Positions 4,750 through 17,000 of a stretch of DNA of 32,079 nt are shown one piece after another. The first letter of the stretch is position 1. Every line of letters begins with the position of its first letter. The DNA is from a virus: the IMG/VR virus record IMGVR_UViG_3300042353_000254, positions 1 to 32,079 of that record. The stretch is one strand, 5' to 3'. The notes under the pieces were generated by a model. It was given only the letters and a program-made list of their open reading frames with translations, did no database searches and was not told the DNA's origin. The position numbers and the translations under genes are program-made.

Positions 4750-7700
4750 ATGGCGCTCAAGAAACTTATCTTCCAACCCGGGATTAACCGGGATACCACC
4801 AACTACTCGCAGGGTAGCGGCAGTCCCGATGGGCAGGCTGGGTGGTATTCGGCCAATAAGATTCGTTTCTTGTCGGGGTTCCCCCAGAAACTCGGTGGTT
4901 GGAAGCTCTACAAAACCGGCGTGGAGTTCGCCGGGGTAGTCCGGACGCTGTTCAACTGGTCTAAGGACGCTTATAACTTACTCGCCGTTGGCACTAATAC
5001 CAACGTGTTTGTGGAATATGAGGGGGTGTACCACAACATAACCCCTATCCGCGCGACGTTTGTCTCCCCCGATTCAGATAACTGCTTCAGTACGGTCTCT
5101 GACGCGGTGATCGCCGCGCACCCGACGTGGATTAAAGTAGTATTCGCCCCCCCTGTAGCGCTGAATGCAAATGCCGGAGATACCGTCATTTTCAGTGGGG
5201 CAACAACTTTTGCTGGGATTCCCATTGGGACGCTAAACGCCGCCCATATTGTGCTTGAAGACCTTGGCCTGCTGCCGTATAGCGCCAATTCTTTTTACAT
5301 TGACGTAGGATTGACCCCAACTGCCGGGCTTACTGGCGGCGGAACCGCGATCACCGTTGAGTTCGAGGTCGGGATTGGCGGCAATGTCGCGTACTCCGGT
5401 GGCGGTTGGGGCGCGCCGTCGTGGGGCGGTTCCGTAGAGTCTCCGCAATTAGGCTGGGGAGACGGGTCACTAACCCCCATTTTCCTCCCGATACGTATTG
5501 TTTATTTTGATAAGTTTACCAACGATTTATTTTTTAATTACCGATATAGCGGCCCAAATACGGCGCTAGTTAGCGTGCCGCAAAGCATGTACCGCTGGCT
5601 TTTCCCCGACCCCTTTACGTTTGCCAATAGGGCGGAATCCATAGCCGACGCGGCAGCCGCAGCCGGGTTTTCCAGCGCGGACGTTCCTCCAGAAGTTACG
5701 CAGATATTGTTCGACGACAACAGCAACACGTTGATGGCCTTTGGCTGTAATCCGTACGATGTGACCCCGCAGCCCCTAGATCCGTTGCTTATCCGGTGGG
5801 CAAGCCAAGCCGACTATTTGAACTGGACACCCAGCGACGACATTGGGATTTCCACGGCGGGGTACCTCCGTATCCAGAGCGGGTCTAATATTTTGCAGGC
5901 GGTGAGCAATGCCAAGGAAATATTGGTATTCACGGAATCCTCCATCACGTCCGTGCAGTACACCTACTCCTACCCGAACCTGTTTAGTCAGACGTTAATT
6001 TCTGCCAATATATCGTTATTCGCTCCGCGAGCAGTAACTGCGATTAACAACACGCTGTACTGGATGGGCCGGGATAAGTTCTACATCTACAACGGTAGAG
6101 CAGAAGCACTTGACTGCACGCTGACCTTGCACGTGTTTGATAACCTGAATTTTGATCAGAGCGATCAGTGCTTCGCAGTTCACGTTGAAAAATATTTGGA
6201 AGTCTGGTGGTTCTACTGCTCGGGAAGCAGCACCGTTGTCAACAGCTACGTCGTGTACAAATACGACGACAACATCTGGTATTACGGCAACTGCGACGAT
6301 GGTTTTGTACGTACAGGGTGGTCGTCGTCGCCGTTGCGTCCGTTCCCACAAGCGGCTGAGCCCACGGTTGTCGATGGGGTATATACGGGGACCAGTCGGC
6401 TTTACAACCAAGAATCTGGCGTAGACGCTGGGTTACTTCCCATGACGTCGTACATCCAGTCGGCGGACATCGACTTGCCGGAAAGCGGCGAACACTTTGT
6501 GCTCATTAAACGTATTATCCCAGACTTGTCCTTTGCCGATTCGGAGGGATTTGCGCAGGTTAATTTTACGGTAGCCCCACGGAATTTCCCCGGGTCCCCG
6601 TACATGACGGAAAACCAAGAGGGACAGCTATTCCCTCGCCGCGTGGATTTGCAAAGCACGACCGTTATGAACGAGTTCACTGAGCAAGTGTTTGTTCGGG
6701 CGCGGGCTCGCCAGATGGCGATCGCCGTATCTTCCGATACGCTGGGCACGCACTGGTCGTTAGGCGCGGTCCGCGCGGATGTCGTACCCGACGGACGTCG
6801 TGGGATTGGCACCCCTCCGGGGATTCTCGTGTTTGGAAGAACCACGAACGGCGCGGATATTTGCGTTGGTGCCGTCAGCACGTTCTACCAAGGGCTCACG
6901 GTTGAGGGTGTGGAGTCTTTAGGGCAAATCGGCCTCGTGGGCGATTCCGGCCCGCTGATTCCCGACTTAATGGTCGGCGGTGTGGAGGCTTTTGGCGGGA
7001 TAGGCAATGTCACAGCGGGGTCGGTAGTTCTCCCAGCAACCCCGTTACTCCGGCTAGACGCAGACGACCCGGCGTCTTATTCCGGTACGGGAGATATTTG
7101 GTACGACATCAGCGGAAATAACTACGACACGTCCCTGAATTCCAACACGGTGTTCAACAGCGGCGGTGGCGCGCCCGCGATGCAATTCGCCAATCCGCTA
7201 AGGCAGCTAGCGTCTGGCACCGCCATCGTGGGCACGGCTGGTGTGATCACTTGTACTGCTCTGGCTACCCCGGTGTACGTCGGGTCTATGGTGCGAGTAT
7301 CCGGAGCCCCTAGCGGTAGCGGGGCAATTTCTGGTTACATCAACCCCACAACGTATTTTGTTATCCCAACTACAAACGGATCTACGTCGTTTACGTTATC
7401 CACGACGCTCGGCGGCGCGGCGGTTACTACTACGGCGGGCACGACCACGGGGTTAACGTTTAATATTACGTCTAATTCCTACGCGCGCGTACCTACCGCG
7501 ATGATCGAGACGCTGTCAGTAGATACCGGGGTAGGAACCACAGTTAATACAGCCTATACATTTGATGTGTGGGTTAAATTCTCCGACTTAAGCCCATTTG
7601 TACAAATAAATACCCCGGCGGGGAACGCTAATTTTACAAATGGGGCGATGATTTTAGACAGTATTGCAAGTAGTCAAGGGTTTAAATTAGTTAGATTAGG

Positions 7701-9369
7701 TTCGGTGGATGGGGGGTCATACCTTAGAGTGGGGATAGATCAACCGGATAGTGGGATCTCAAAAAACTCTTCTACAGGCCCGTGGGCACCGTTAGTAGAC
7801 CGTTGGTATAACCTGACAATGGTGTATACAAACATCCAAGCAAACTCTGACGCAATAAAACTGTACGTTGACGGAACGCTTGTCAGCTCCGGGCGGGCTT
7901 ATTCGGGGGCAGACCCGTCAAACATAACTGGAATATTTAGGAATAGCTCAGGAAATAATGCACTAAATATTGGGGCTAACACATTTACGGGGCAAGATAC
8001 GTCTCAGTATGTTCATTATAGCCAATCCATAATTGGATGGATCCCCGTCGTTAACGGATACGCCCGAGCATTAACAGCGCTTGAAATCCAAGACAGCTAC
8101 GCATATTACTCGCCACGGTTCACTAATCCTGCGCTACCAGCGGTGGTATCCCCAGCACTTGTCGGTACCCCCATTGCGTTGTACGACACCGCTATCACGG
8201 ACTACGGGCAGTATGGCGACTATGCCGTCGGAGATTCGTTGTTCTTACCCACGTTTGGCAACGGGTCTAATTCTTACACCTCTACTAGCGGGTTGGTCAA
8301 TCAGGTAGATTATCTCACCACGACGCCCGTGACGCTAACAGTATCGGGGGTTGACGCTAATGGCGTAATAACATACTCCACAATTTCGGCGACTTACCCC
8401 GCTGGTTTACCCCCAATGACGCCTATTGTTATAACGGGGACAAATACTGGTACTGGGAATCTGAGGGCAACGTACGTAAGCGGGAGCGTGTGGTGGACAG
8501 CGGGAGCCAATTATAGCTCTACGGCAAACACTACTTCCTCAACTATTTACCCCAACGGACCTAACGAACATTCTTTCCATTCTTCTTCGGCGGATTATAA
8601 CGGTGGTGGGTCAGTAGCATCCCCAATGAATTCCACCGCCGGGACACTAACGGGGCTTATTTTTACTGCGTATCCCAATACTAACCCATTAGCTTCTCTT
8701 AACTTTGGGACCTACGGGGCGTATTACGATAACAGCGCTGGGCTTCTACCGACAACACTGACCAGCGCGCGTCCGTTATATGTCACCTATGTGGGAGATT
8801 CGTCGCTTGCCATAGTCCCCGCAGAAAATCTTCGGACTATATTAACTACGCGCGCGTCGTTCTCTGTCAATGTGTGGTATTACCACACAGCGTTCCCAAC
8901 AAAGTACGGTTCGGTTATAGCGCAGTTATACGAAGGATCAGTCTACGCGCCAAGTGGGGGTAATTCCGACATCGGTATGTTTATCGGGAATAACACTGGG
9001 ACCGGTGGGACGAAAGACGACGAGATCCGCGCGGGCATATACAATAGAAGTATAGGTGCGTGGGCAGATACCCCGGTGGTAGTAGCGATGTTAAATGTCT
9101 GGTACAACTACACCATGACGTTTAATTCCGGTACGGGAATAATAACGTTCTACCGCAATAATGTTTCGTATGGTACTGCGTCTGTTACCGGTAGTATTAC
9201 GCAACCCAGCCCAGTTAATGTTATACACGTAACCCGAAATTGGCGTAATCAAGTTGACCCATCGGTAATGCCCGGCAAACTCGGCGCGCTCCAAATCTAC
9301 GACGTGGCATTAAACAGCACGCAGGTGACGCAGAACTGGGATCACTTTAAGACGCGGTACGGGTACTAG
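4750..9369 (+). CDS. Tail nozzle-like protein fused to two lectin-like (LamG) domains
   Basis: The protein has 1539 residues; AAAGGA (4735-4740) is 9 bases before ATG. Residues 1 to about 690 resemble phage tail/nozzle or DNA-stabilisation proteins in the broad style of P22 gp10. They carry the N-terminal motif PGINRDTTNYSQ, then RFLSGFPQKLGGW, and repeated Trp/Tyr beta-rich segments. Residues about 698-760 are a linker with TTNGADICVGAV and two GVE(S/A) repeats. Residues about 766-1125 and 1270-1539 each look like a concanavalin A/LamG-type lectin fold, with TFDVWVKF and SVNVWYYH strands and closing GYARALTALEI and LGALQIYDVALN motifs. The product is probably a virion tail protein with carbohydrate-binding arms. 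The N-terminal assignment is the weaker part. The lectin region is locally AT-richer than its flanks. Confidence 0.65.
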   Translation: MALKKLIFQPGINRDTTNYSQGSGSPDGQAGWYSANKIRFLSGFPQKLGGWKLYKTGVEFAGVVRTLFNWSKDAYNLLAVGTNTNVFVEYEGVYHNITPIRATFVSPDSDNCFSTVSDAVIAAHPTWIKVVFAPPVALNANAGDTVIFSGATTFAGIPIGTLNAAHIVLEDLGLLPYSANSFYIDVGLTPTAGLTGGGTAITVEFEVGIGGNVAYSGGGWGAPSWGGSVESPQLGWGDGSLTPIFLPIRIVYFDKFTNDLFFNYRYSGPNTALVSVPQSMYRWLFPDPFTFANRAESIADAAAAAGFSSADVPPEVTQILFDDNSNTLMAFGCNPYDVTPQPLDPLLIRWASQADYLNWTPSDDIGISTAGYLRIQSGSNILQAVSNAKEILVFTESSITSVQYTYSYPNLFSQTLISANISLFAPRAVTAINNTLYWMGRDKFYIYNGRAEALDCTLTLHVFDNLNFDQSDQCFAVHVEKYLEVWWFYCSGSSTVVNSYVVYKYDDNIWYYGNCDDGFVRTGWSSSPLRPFPQAAEPTVVDGVYTGTSRLYNQESGVDAGLLPMTSYIQSADIDLPESGEHFVLIKRIIPDLSFADSEGFAQVNFTVAPRNFPGSPYMTENQEGQLFPRRVDLQSTTVMNEFTEQVFVRARARQMAIAVSSDTLGTHWSLGAVRADVVPDGRRGIGTPPGILVFGRTTNGADICVGAVSTFYQGLTVEGVESLGQIGLVGDSGPLIPDLMVGGVEAFGGIGNVTAGSVVLPATPLLRLDADDPASYSGTGDIWYDISGNNYDTSLNSNTVFNSGGGAPAMQFANPLRQLASGTAIVGTAGVITCTALATPVYVGSMVRVSGAPSGSGAISGYINPTTYFVIPTTNGSTSFTLSTTLGGAAVTTTAGTTTGLTFNITSNSYARVPTAMIETLSVDTGVGTTVNTAYTFDVWVKFSDLSPFVQINTPAGNANFTNGAMILDSIASSQGFKLVRLGSVDGGSYLRVGIDQPDSGISKNSSTGPWAPLVDRWYNLTMVYTNIQANSDAIKLYVDGTLVSSGRAYSGADPSNITGIFRNSSGNNALNIGANTFTGQDTSQYVHYSQSIIGWIPVVNGYARALTALEIQDSYAYYSPRFTNPALPAVVSPALVGTPIALYDTAITDYGQYGDYAVGDSLFLPTFGNGSNSYTSTSGLVNQVDYLTTTPVTLTVSGVDANGVITYSTISATYPAGLPPMTPIVITGTNTGTGNLRATYVSGSVWWTAGANYSSTANTTSSTIYPNGPNEHSFHSSSADYNGGGSVASPMNSTAGTLTGLIFTAYPNTNPLASLNFGTYGAYYDNSAGLLPTTLTSARPLYVTYVGDSSLAIVPAENLRTILTTRASFSVNVWYYHTAFPTKYGSVIAQLYEGSVYAPSGGNSDIGMFIGNNTGTGGTKDDEIRAGIYNRSIGAWADTPVVVAMLNVWYNYTMTFNSGTGIITFYRNNVSYGTASVTGSITQPSPVNVIHVTRNWRNQVDPSVMPGKLGALQIYDVALNSTQVTQNWDHFKTRYGY

Positions 9370-9371
9370 CG

Positions 9372-9854
9372 ATGGCGTTTGACAACTACAGTTCCCCGAA
9401 CCTCCCGGCCCCGCCGCGTACTTACAGCCGGGACTATTTCATGCAGTTGGTGCGGGCGCTGGGGACGTTCTTCAAGATCTCGGATTCTCGCGCGGGGCTA
9501 ACCATAGACAGCATTACGACCACGATGCTCCGGTTACCCGTCGCGCAGTTTGTTGGAGTTAACGGGGCAAATAATAACGTCTCGTTAGCGTCCGCGAGCT
9601 TTATTCGGGTTGCCGGACCTACCGGGGCGTTCTCTCTTACGGGGATGTCCGGTGGCCTTGACGGTAGAGTGCTGGTTCTATTTAATTCAACGGTTCATAA
9701 TATGACGATTGCCAATGAAAGTGTCAGCAGCGTCGCCAATAATCGGGTTATCACGGGCACGGGCGCGGATATTGTGACCTCCGGGCAAGGGGCAGTCACA
9801 CTGCTCTACTCTATAAATGACCACAGGTGGATCGTCACTTCTCTCCAAGCGTAG
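9372..9854 (+). CDS. Small virion/tail protein
   Basis: The protein has 160 residues and begins two bases after the upstream stop. Residues 1-45 contain PAPPRTYSRDYFMQLVRALG. The remainder is beta-rich and ends in GTGADIVTSGQGAVTLLY plus a Trp-containing tail (RWIVTSLQA). A similar C-terminal pattern occurs at the end of many phage fibre or tail-surface proteins that I recall. Its position between the nozzle-like protein and the ejection proteins supports a structural role. The exact role is unknown. Confidence 0.6.
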   Translation: MAFDNYSSPNLPAPPRTYSRDYFMQLVRALGTFFKISDSRAGLTIDSITTTMLRLPVAQFVGVNGANNNVSLASASFIRVAGPTGAFSLTGMSGGLDGRVLVLFNSTVHNMTIANESVSSVANNRVITGTGADIVTSGQGAVTLLYSINDHRWIVTSLQA

Positions 9855-14081: not shown

Positions 14082-17000
14082 ATGCCGAATACATTTGAAG
14101 TACAAAGATATAACGGCAAGAAATACAAAGTTACGCTGCCGGGGGACGACGCGACAGAAGAAGACGCGAACGCCTATCTAGACAATAAGTACGGGGCGAA
14201 GCCCGTAGAAGAAATGTCCGCTATGGAGCGCATCCAGATGCTCCCGGATAAGCGGTCGTTTGGAGAGGCCCTTGGAGCAGGTGGGCTGCGGTCTCTTTCG
14301 CGCCTAAAGTCCACGGTCACGAACGTCTTACCGGCAATGTTGGACGACGCCATCGGGCGCAAGGACCTTGCAGAAAACAGGCTCATAAACGCGCGGTACG
14401 CGGAAGCCCAGCTCCAACGGGAGAACCCCTCGGAGTTTCGGTCGTTATCGGATGTTAAGGGTTTGGGGGACGTCTCGAATTTCCTAGCCGAGAACTTTGG
14501 TGAGCAGGGCGCGAACATCGCGTTGACGGTAGCCACCGGCGGGCTTGGGGCTTTAGTAGGTCGAGGGATGGCCGCTAGGGGATTAGCTTCCCGAACAGCG
14601 GTAGGAGGAACCGGAGCCGCTGCTCAGAACCTAGATCGGGTGGCGTTGCAAAGAGCGCAGAACGCTGCCGATTTTAACTACGCCAGAAATCCTCCGCCCT
14701 CATTCGTAGGGCCTGTTAGAGCCCCATTTCCGCCGGGGAGGTCGCCTGTTGCTGCTACACCCGAGGCGATTGCGGCGGCTAGGAACCGGCTCGTCACTAA
14801 CACCCTACTCCCACAAGCAAAACGCGCAGGCGCTGCGGCAGGTGCTGGTGTCGGCGTAGCCCTTGGGTCGTTCGCGCAAACCGCCCCGGAAGTTTACGAA
14901 GGTGTGTACGAAAAGACGGGCAAGCTGTCGCTACCCGCAGCGATTATTGGTGGCGGCGTTAACGCGGCGTTAGAGGCGGTCGTGCCCACCGCTGTACTAA
15001 GTGCGTTTAAGAAGACTCCGGGCTTGCAGGCGGCGGTTGCCCAAACCCTGCTCCGTAATTCGGGAATGACTCCGGGGCTTGTGAAGACCGTCGGCAAGAC
15101 CGTGTTTAAGACCGCTGTGAAAGAAGGTGTTACTGAGGGCGCGCAAGAATCCGTAAACATCGCAGCAGAGCGGATTGTCGGAGAGAACTCCGAGGCTCTT
15201 ACGTCCGAAGATTTTAATCGCGTCTTCGAGGCATCGGTACGCGGAGCCGCTGCGGGTGGTCCGTTCGGCGTTGTCGAGGGGGTTGGGAAATACTCAGAGA
15301 CCCGTGCAGAGGGCGACCGTCAGCTTTCAGCGACGCAAGATCGCGAGGCACGTATTGCCAAGAACCAGCAAATCATCCAGACCCGCAAAGACCTTGCAGA
15401 AGCCCGCGCGGCGGTAAGGATTTCTAGCGGAGATCCCGTGGCAGACGCGGAAGCGGCTAAGAAAGTTACGGACCTGCAGAGCCAGTTGGATGGGCTTCTC
15501 AACATCCCAGTCGCAGCGTCTGCACCTGCTGCGGGCACGGCCGCCGCAAGTAAGGTAAAGGACATCCTAACAGCGGCGGGGATCAGTATGTCCAAGGGCA
15601 ATAAGTCTGGCATCCCGAATGCCCTTAGGTATGAAAAACCCATCACGGCGGCCAATGCGCAGGCCATGCGGGACTTCCTGCAGTCTAAGATAGACGACCC
15701 GGCTACTGATGCAGAAACCAAGGCTAAAATACAGAATCAGTTAGATACGAATGAGGCACTTCAGCCACGGACTGATGTCGCTATTAGTAAAGACATTGAG
15801 GCGCAAACCAAGGTTGTTGCAGATAAGCAAGCGAACATGGCGGCCATCAATAATCCACGGTATACGGCAGATCAGACTTTATTAGCCCAAGAGAACAACA
15901 AGCTAAAAACTCTACAAGATGAGCTGACGTACTACAACGCTGATGACGCTGGCAAGATAACCATTGACCAGAATAATTTGCGGGAACAGATAAGCAACCC
16001 CGGAGATTTGTACCAGTACGTCCACGCGGCCAAAACCCCACAAGGCGGCGGGCTAAGAAAGAAAGAGCTTCAAGAATTGGGCGCGCAATTCGGTGGTGAA
16101 ACCACGAACGAACACCCCGACCTAGTGCGGCAGATTGTCCAACGTAAGCTAGACGTACTGAAAAAGAAACCCCCGGGTGTCGCTGCCAACACCAAGGAAA
16201 TTACACGGCTAGGGGCAATCCTAGACCTACCGGAATTCAGCGAGGCTTTTGCCGAACTGAAGGCTAGGGCCCGTACCGCTGGGCCTGCCCCAACTCCCGG
16301 CCCTGCGCCAGTAGTGGAAGAACCCGCGCCAGTAGTGGAAGAACCCGCGCCAGTAGTGGAAGAACCCGCGCCAGTAGTGGAAGAACCCGCGCCCGTAGTG
16401 GAAGAACCCGTAGCGGCTGCGCCCGTGGAAGAACCCGTAGCGGCTGCGCCCGTGGAAGCGCCCGTAGCGGCTGCGCCCGTGGAAGCGCCCGTAGTGGCTG
16501 CGCCCGTGGAAGCGCCCGTAGCGGCTGCGCCCGTGGAAGAACCCGCATTTGAAGGTTTTATTGACCCTGACGAGGACTTAATAGCCTCGGAACGCAAATT
16601 AGACCTAGCGAATAGACGGAAGAAAAAATTAAACGCATTTAGCGACGATGTAAACGAGTCTCTATCCGGCCAATCCGATGGTGATGATTATTTAATGCGG
16701 TCGCCGCCTCCAGTAGGTTACGCAGCGGGGACGTCAGCCCACACCCGCGCTGTGGCGGAGCAGATAAACGTCAAGCTTGGAAGTAACATATTTGATACCT
16801 CTAAATCTACCGAATATTTTGTTCATTCGGTATACGGGGGAAAGATATTTGTAGGTACCCGCGCGGCGTTTAAAACGTTCTACGGGAAAGAAGATTTAAA
16901 TCTAGAGGGTGTAAGTGGGATAGCCGCAGGAAACCGCCAAGGGAGATCTGGTGGTGGCGAGTGGATAGCCGCCGTGTTTTCCGATGGGGTTTCCGTTGAC

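Follow-up and report, generated by a model that had tools for sequence, protein, structure and literature searches.

Organization of the locus

The analysed stretch of viral DNA (the window, 32,079 nucleotides) carries an open reading frame in which a tail nozzle is continued by a repeat linker and two lectin-like domains. A gene for a repeat fibre-like protein lies 2.2 kb upstream of the nozzle gene. The ORF at 4750-9369 was intact, and identical in a near-identical 50-kb contig (IMGVR 3300046028_003665). The features considered here are the following.

1435-2574, + strand: repeat fibre-like protein, 379 aa, 14 units of ~21 aa with the core TTNG[APQ]DI
4750-9369, + strand: fusion protein, 1539 aa, complete tail nozzle with repeat linker and two lectin-like domains
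4750-6801, + strand: nozzle part, residues 1-684 (phrog_3287, nozzle fold, end point of the relatives)
6802-7059, + strand: linker, residues 685-770 (pLDDT <50 from residue 685; three repeat-like units)
6817-6879, + strand: fibre-type 21-residue unit PGILVFGRTTNGADICVGAVS, residues 690-710 (profile score above every background position)
6841-6876, + strand: core TTNGADICVGAV, residues 698-709, located in the translation of ORF 4750-9369
6895-7038, + strand: two 24-residue units, LTVEGVESLGQIG.. and LMVGGVEAFGGIG.., residues 716-763 (GVxATGxVGxV phage repeat class)
7546-8088, + strand: first Laminin_G_3 (ConA-like lectin) domain, residues ~933-1113 (Pfam PF13385)
8848-9327, + strand: second Laminin_G_3 domain, residues ~1367-1526 (Pfam PF13385; phrog_8510)
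9372-9854, + strand: 160-aa gene directly after the nozzle gene, with phmmer homologues at the same place in contigs L215, L222, L226, and L234

Repeats were also seen elsewhere in the window. The glycine-rich 433-aa gene within 1-1434 is a tandem paralogue, with 82% identity in L009 (4051-6676); positions 1-127 share 98% identity with the end of the copy that comes next, and the first position of the window falls in the preceding copy. A 2048-aa protein contains Pro/Val/Glu-rich tandem repeats at 16305-16545, with periods of 21 and 27 nt and 95-98% identity.

Residues 1-684 are a complete tail nozzle

Usually, nozzle proteins are regarded as channels for the DNA, and it is the fibres and spikes that are credited with receptor binding. 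In a profile search, phrog_3287 matched residues 11-684 up to the end of the profile (E=1.6e-38), and solved nozzles were found by a profile of 15 homologues of the nozzle part. The AF2 model of residues 1-684 reached a pTM of 0.78, and when it was compared with known structures by Foldseek, the nozzles of Pa223, SU10, VP1, T7, and P22 were recovered with E-values from 1e-23 to 1e-8; the nozzle of A4 was also among the structure matches. Sequence and fold both identify residues 1-684 as a complete tail-nozzle protein, resembling P22 gp10, T7 gp12, Pa223, VP1 gp16, and SU10 gp17.

The sequence relatives compared end at the residue-684 point, whereas the window protein continues. A stop at the equivalent of residue 684 was found in 235 of 235 readable viral-contig relatives (78/78 in a first set and 157/157 in two further sets), which represent the best-scoring part of more than 588 and possibly include some near-duplicates; a C-terminal graft was present in none of these 235. 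The nozzle gene ended at the same point in 14 named phage records. The usual C-terminus of the relatives is ..R(P)DGRR-stop, after the last strand. A chain end at ..PDGRR is common but not strictly defining, and it is absent here, where 855 more residues follow. Because the whole nozzle precedes the extension, we took the extension as an elaboration of a nozzle. The gene order was undisturbed by the graft, since homologues of the gene at 9372-9854 keep their position after the nozzle in all four contigs listed above. The nozzle of SU10 has been elaborated differently, by extra Ig-like domains inserted between the propeller blades (PMC9509320), in contrast to the C-terminal lectin-like extension of the window protein.

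The extension is a maintained gene part with two lectin-like domains

The 855 residues after residue 684 comprise a short linker followed by two Laminin_G_3 domains. When each was scanned alone against Pfam PF13385, a ConA-like lectin domain of phage tail proteins, the first scored 31.6 bits and the second 39.9 bits, both above the cut-off of 27.6. The second lectin-like region was also matched by phrog_8510, a 1348-aa virion structural protein (E=2.8e-10); the C-terminal 157 positions of this profile correspond to residues 1367-1538, and the remaining profile had no separate match in the window protein. The carrier of the Laminin_G_3 domains is here a nozzle, as opposed to a fibre or spike, and their glycan binding is putative. 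With a pLDDT of 27, the AF2 model of the extension was disregarded, and the spacer and lectin folds are putative.

A second phage contig, L010, carries the extension at 81% identity with the same next gene following it, which argues for a maintained gene and against a fusion created by assembly. Contig L010 begins at residue 727, and L011, an 82% relative, breaks at residue 683, so that intact junctions were seen in the window and in the near-identical 50-kb contig. In window coordinates the graft junction is flanked by the ends of these two related contigs, L011 ending at 6799 and L010 starting at 6928; the breaks possibly reflect chance or local strain variation. The extension gave no tblastn match in 50,697 phage records, and in titles and abstracts of the open-access literature we found none describing a nozzle-lectin fusion or the 21-residue repeat.

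Third-position GC content (GC3) was 0.64 over the nozzle and linker and fell to ~0.51 over residues 771-1366. Values similar to that of the nozzle were obtained for the flanking gene P0003 (0.65) and for the fibre array (0.67). Such a drop in the lectin part, with flanks matching the nozzle, is what would be expected of a lectin part of foreign origin, and the composition is consistent with its separate acquisition.

The linker contains units of two repeat classes

The first-pass annotation had matched TTNGADICVGAV to the core of the fibre repeat and placed it at the junction between the nozzle and the lectin-like domains. Both observations were confirmed: the unit begins 6 residues, and its core 14 residues, past the ancestral nozzle C-terminus, and the lectin-like domains lie downstream of it. 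A profile was built from 43 units of six viral contigs, none from this phage, and scored against a background of 511,352 positions in 1,317 unselected phage ORFs. Residues 690-710 scored 17.5 bits with this profile, compared to 9.7 for the best background position, and 23.4 bits (background best 15.8) with a profile of the fibre's own units. None of 2000 shuffles reached either score. In 2.0 million residues of fetched loci, the higher scorers were repeat-array proteins and one single-unit small protein. Two registers were tried, that of residues 690-710 having been suggested by a phmmer alignment; the first, starting 2 residues before TTNG, gave p ~0.03. In a single-domain phmmer search the unit was not significant (E ~0.6-2 in 18,386 ORFs). 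The 7-mers of the array occurred nowhere in 255,061 unselected phage residues, and one of them occurs in the nozzle protein. The unit at 690-710, though short, is thus likely homologous to the 21-residue repeat of the fibre, as judged from these scores. A tandem array at the 21-residue period is absent from the linker. Because there is a single unit with neighbours of another, 24-residue class, the unit is best regarded as related, and the nozzle protein is no array protein of the TT[DN]GAD family.

Units 2 and 3 contain GVESLGQIG and GVEAFGGIG, respectively, and an internal repeat of this strength was reached in 5 of 1000 shuffles. Their DNA forms a 24-nt direct repeat at 72-nt spacing (79%). 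Compared with unit 1, they ranked 46 and 27 of 1466, indicating no clear homology. Their pattern is common to the GVxATGxVGxV fibres of L244, L245, L254, and L264, although the linker has two units only, with a 24-residue period. In these four contigs the GVxATGxVGxV class builds a fibre whose gene precedes the nozzle by 2.5-5 kb, and the fibres end in W..I.D.Q.P.W, as does the repeat fibre of the window; it was also observed that W..I.D.QTP.W repeats end these proteins. Because the four fibres occupy the place of the window's fibre, the fibre locus of this phage group is served by two stalk-repeat classes, both of them present in the nozzle linker.

The 21-residue repeat family in other viral contigs

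Pattern scans located TT[DN]GAD arrays in ~25 other viral contigs (L067, L147, L174, L189, L492, L507, L523, and others). The profile of these arrays matches the linker unit; they hold 3-27 or more tandem copies, whereas the linker holds one. The array proteins are mostly 100-750 residues long, with an acidic C-terminus resembling DDEELLLLM in several. A C-terminal tail rich in Leu and acidic residues (DDEEALLMLL type) was noted in array proteins of L067, L128, L170, L198, L471, L492, L502, L523, and L557, which suggests that array proteins with this tail but different repeat classes are one fibre-like family with exchangeable repeats. No PHROG match was obtained for the two array proteins tested, and the fibre had no tblastn match in 50,697 phage records. 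A paired-unit scan of genome contigs returned 7 stretches, none scoring as family members. Matches of a triple scan for [ND]GxD were rejected on inspection, being mostly collagen-like GxDG repeats. The 21-residue repeat family is large and widespread in viral contigs.

A general occurrence of the TTNGADI core at domain borders was not supported. Among 2.9 million viral contigs, the core occurred in the array of L067, as a single unit in a small protein of L020, L060, and L068, and otherwise at random places. The protein of L504 carries a Laminin_G_3 domain (3.4e-12) at its N-terminus and, after it, an array of related units. Large beta-rich N-terminal regions precede the array in L518 and L536, as judged by eye and with no Pfam match. 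Nearly all of the other TT[DN]GAD carriers have their units as arrays in short fibre-like proteins and not as junction copies. One contig, L202, holds both a repeat array and a nozzle gene.

Comparison of the unit and the fibre array at the DNA level

A close DNA similarity between the nozzle site and the fibre repeats had also been noted, and we found that it does not go beyond the shared amino acids. The word CGGCGCGGATATT occurs exactly at 1701 in the array and at 6849. The longest DNA word common to the array and the nozzle site is 15 nt, AACGGCGCGGATATT, compared to at most 12 nt elsewhere in the tested genes. When the residues were fixed and codons were drawn from the usage of the window, at least 19 of 21 matches were obtained in 20% of trials (P = 0.20). 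Moreover, the Thr-Thr codons are ACG ACC in 14 of 14 fibre units and ACC ACG in the nozzle copy. A near-miss of the array word, GGGCGCGGATATT, encodes TGADI at 9761-9773 in the next, unrelated gene and is likely a chance match; its occurrence there indicates that GADI codons agree easily. With an identity no higher than the residues predict, and with different Thr codons, the site shows no sign of having been copied recently. At the DNA level no trace of recombination linking array and nozzle gene was found, and the codon evidence led us to reject recent gene conversion between the two genes.

Discussion

The joint between nozzle and lectin-like domains is real and unusual. We consider it probable that the protein is a nozzle of the P22 gp10/T7 gp12 type that gained, exactly at its ancestral stop codon, an 855-residue C-terminal extension providing surface-binding arms. 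The extension opens with a spacer of ~80 residues containing three short repeat units, of which unit 1 is likely homologous to the stalk repeat of the fibre and units 2 and 3 belong to the second stalk-repeat class, the one that related phages use for the same fibre. In known nozzle structures, including that described in the SU10 paper, the C-terminus attaches at the platform end (PMC9509320). If the nozzle is hexameric here as well, six copies of the extension would hang from this end and give the tail extra arms, probably glycan-binding, and the repeats would form an extended spacer. Binding of a host receptor by tail tubular protein B provides a precedent (PMC7241545), and the additional Ig-like domains carried by the SU10 nozzle are another (PMC9509320). 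A stalk function of the linker unit would be by analogy, as there is one copy of it, next to two divergent units, and no array; it was probably co-opted long ago as a stalk element or spacer joining the nozzle to an adhesin.

Three other explanations were weighed. That an assembly or sequencing error fused two genes into the 1539-aa ORF is scarcely credible. The extension is indeed found in none of the 235 readable nozzle relatives, but the identical ORF appears in an independently named 50-kb contig, and L010 has the extension at 81% identity before the same next gene. It is also unlikely that a Gly/Thr/Ala-rich beta linker produced its TTNGADI independently, with no common descent with the fibre repeat. 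The non-significant phmmer result, the lack of a match for the downstream half of the unit (first register, p ~0.03), and the different class of the neighbouring units agree with such convergence; however, in the matching register and with a profile drawn from other phages, the unit outscored each of the 511,352 background positions, and in 2.0 million residues it also outscored almost all proteins outside the family.

The remaining explanation, which we regard as quite improbable, is the portable linker or recombination seam suggested by the first-pass annotation, in which short DNA similarity between fibre and nozzle was, or still is, used for grafting adhesin modules by recombination at the unit. 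Part of this suggestion stood. A likely member of the repeat family lies exactly at the graft point before two lectin-like domains, the 15-nt word is common with the array, an array follows a LamG domain in the unrelated protein of L504, and the breaks of L011 at 6799 and L010 at 6928 could reflect local strain variation. The recombination itself was not borne out. The DNA match is expected from the residues, ACC ACG stands against ACG ACC in all 14 fibre units, and no second copy of the unit flanks the lectin part. An alternative graft was found in 0 of 235 nozzle relatives and different grafts at one unit were not found; other carriers have arrays, not junction copies, and the unit was not found at domain borders in general. 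The two contig breaks (n=2) may be chance. We retain the reading of a nozzle with a repeat spacer and lectin-like arms. It would be a long shot to go further and regard the stalk-repeat unit as an exchangeable joint that hangs varied adhesins on the nozzle, with a second receptor-binding system independent of the fibre and a junction that is hypervariable in nature.

With a lectin-like graft at its exact C-terminus, this nozzle offers a clean natural case for studying whether nozzles can take part in adsorption. The joint between nozzle and lectin-like domains is likewise a case for studying the reuse of repeat stalks among tail proteins.
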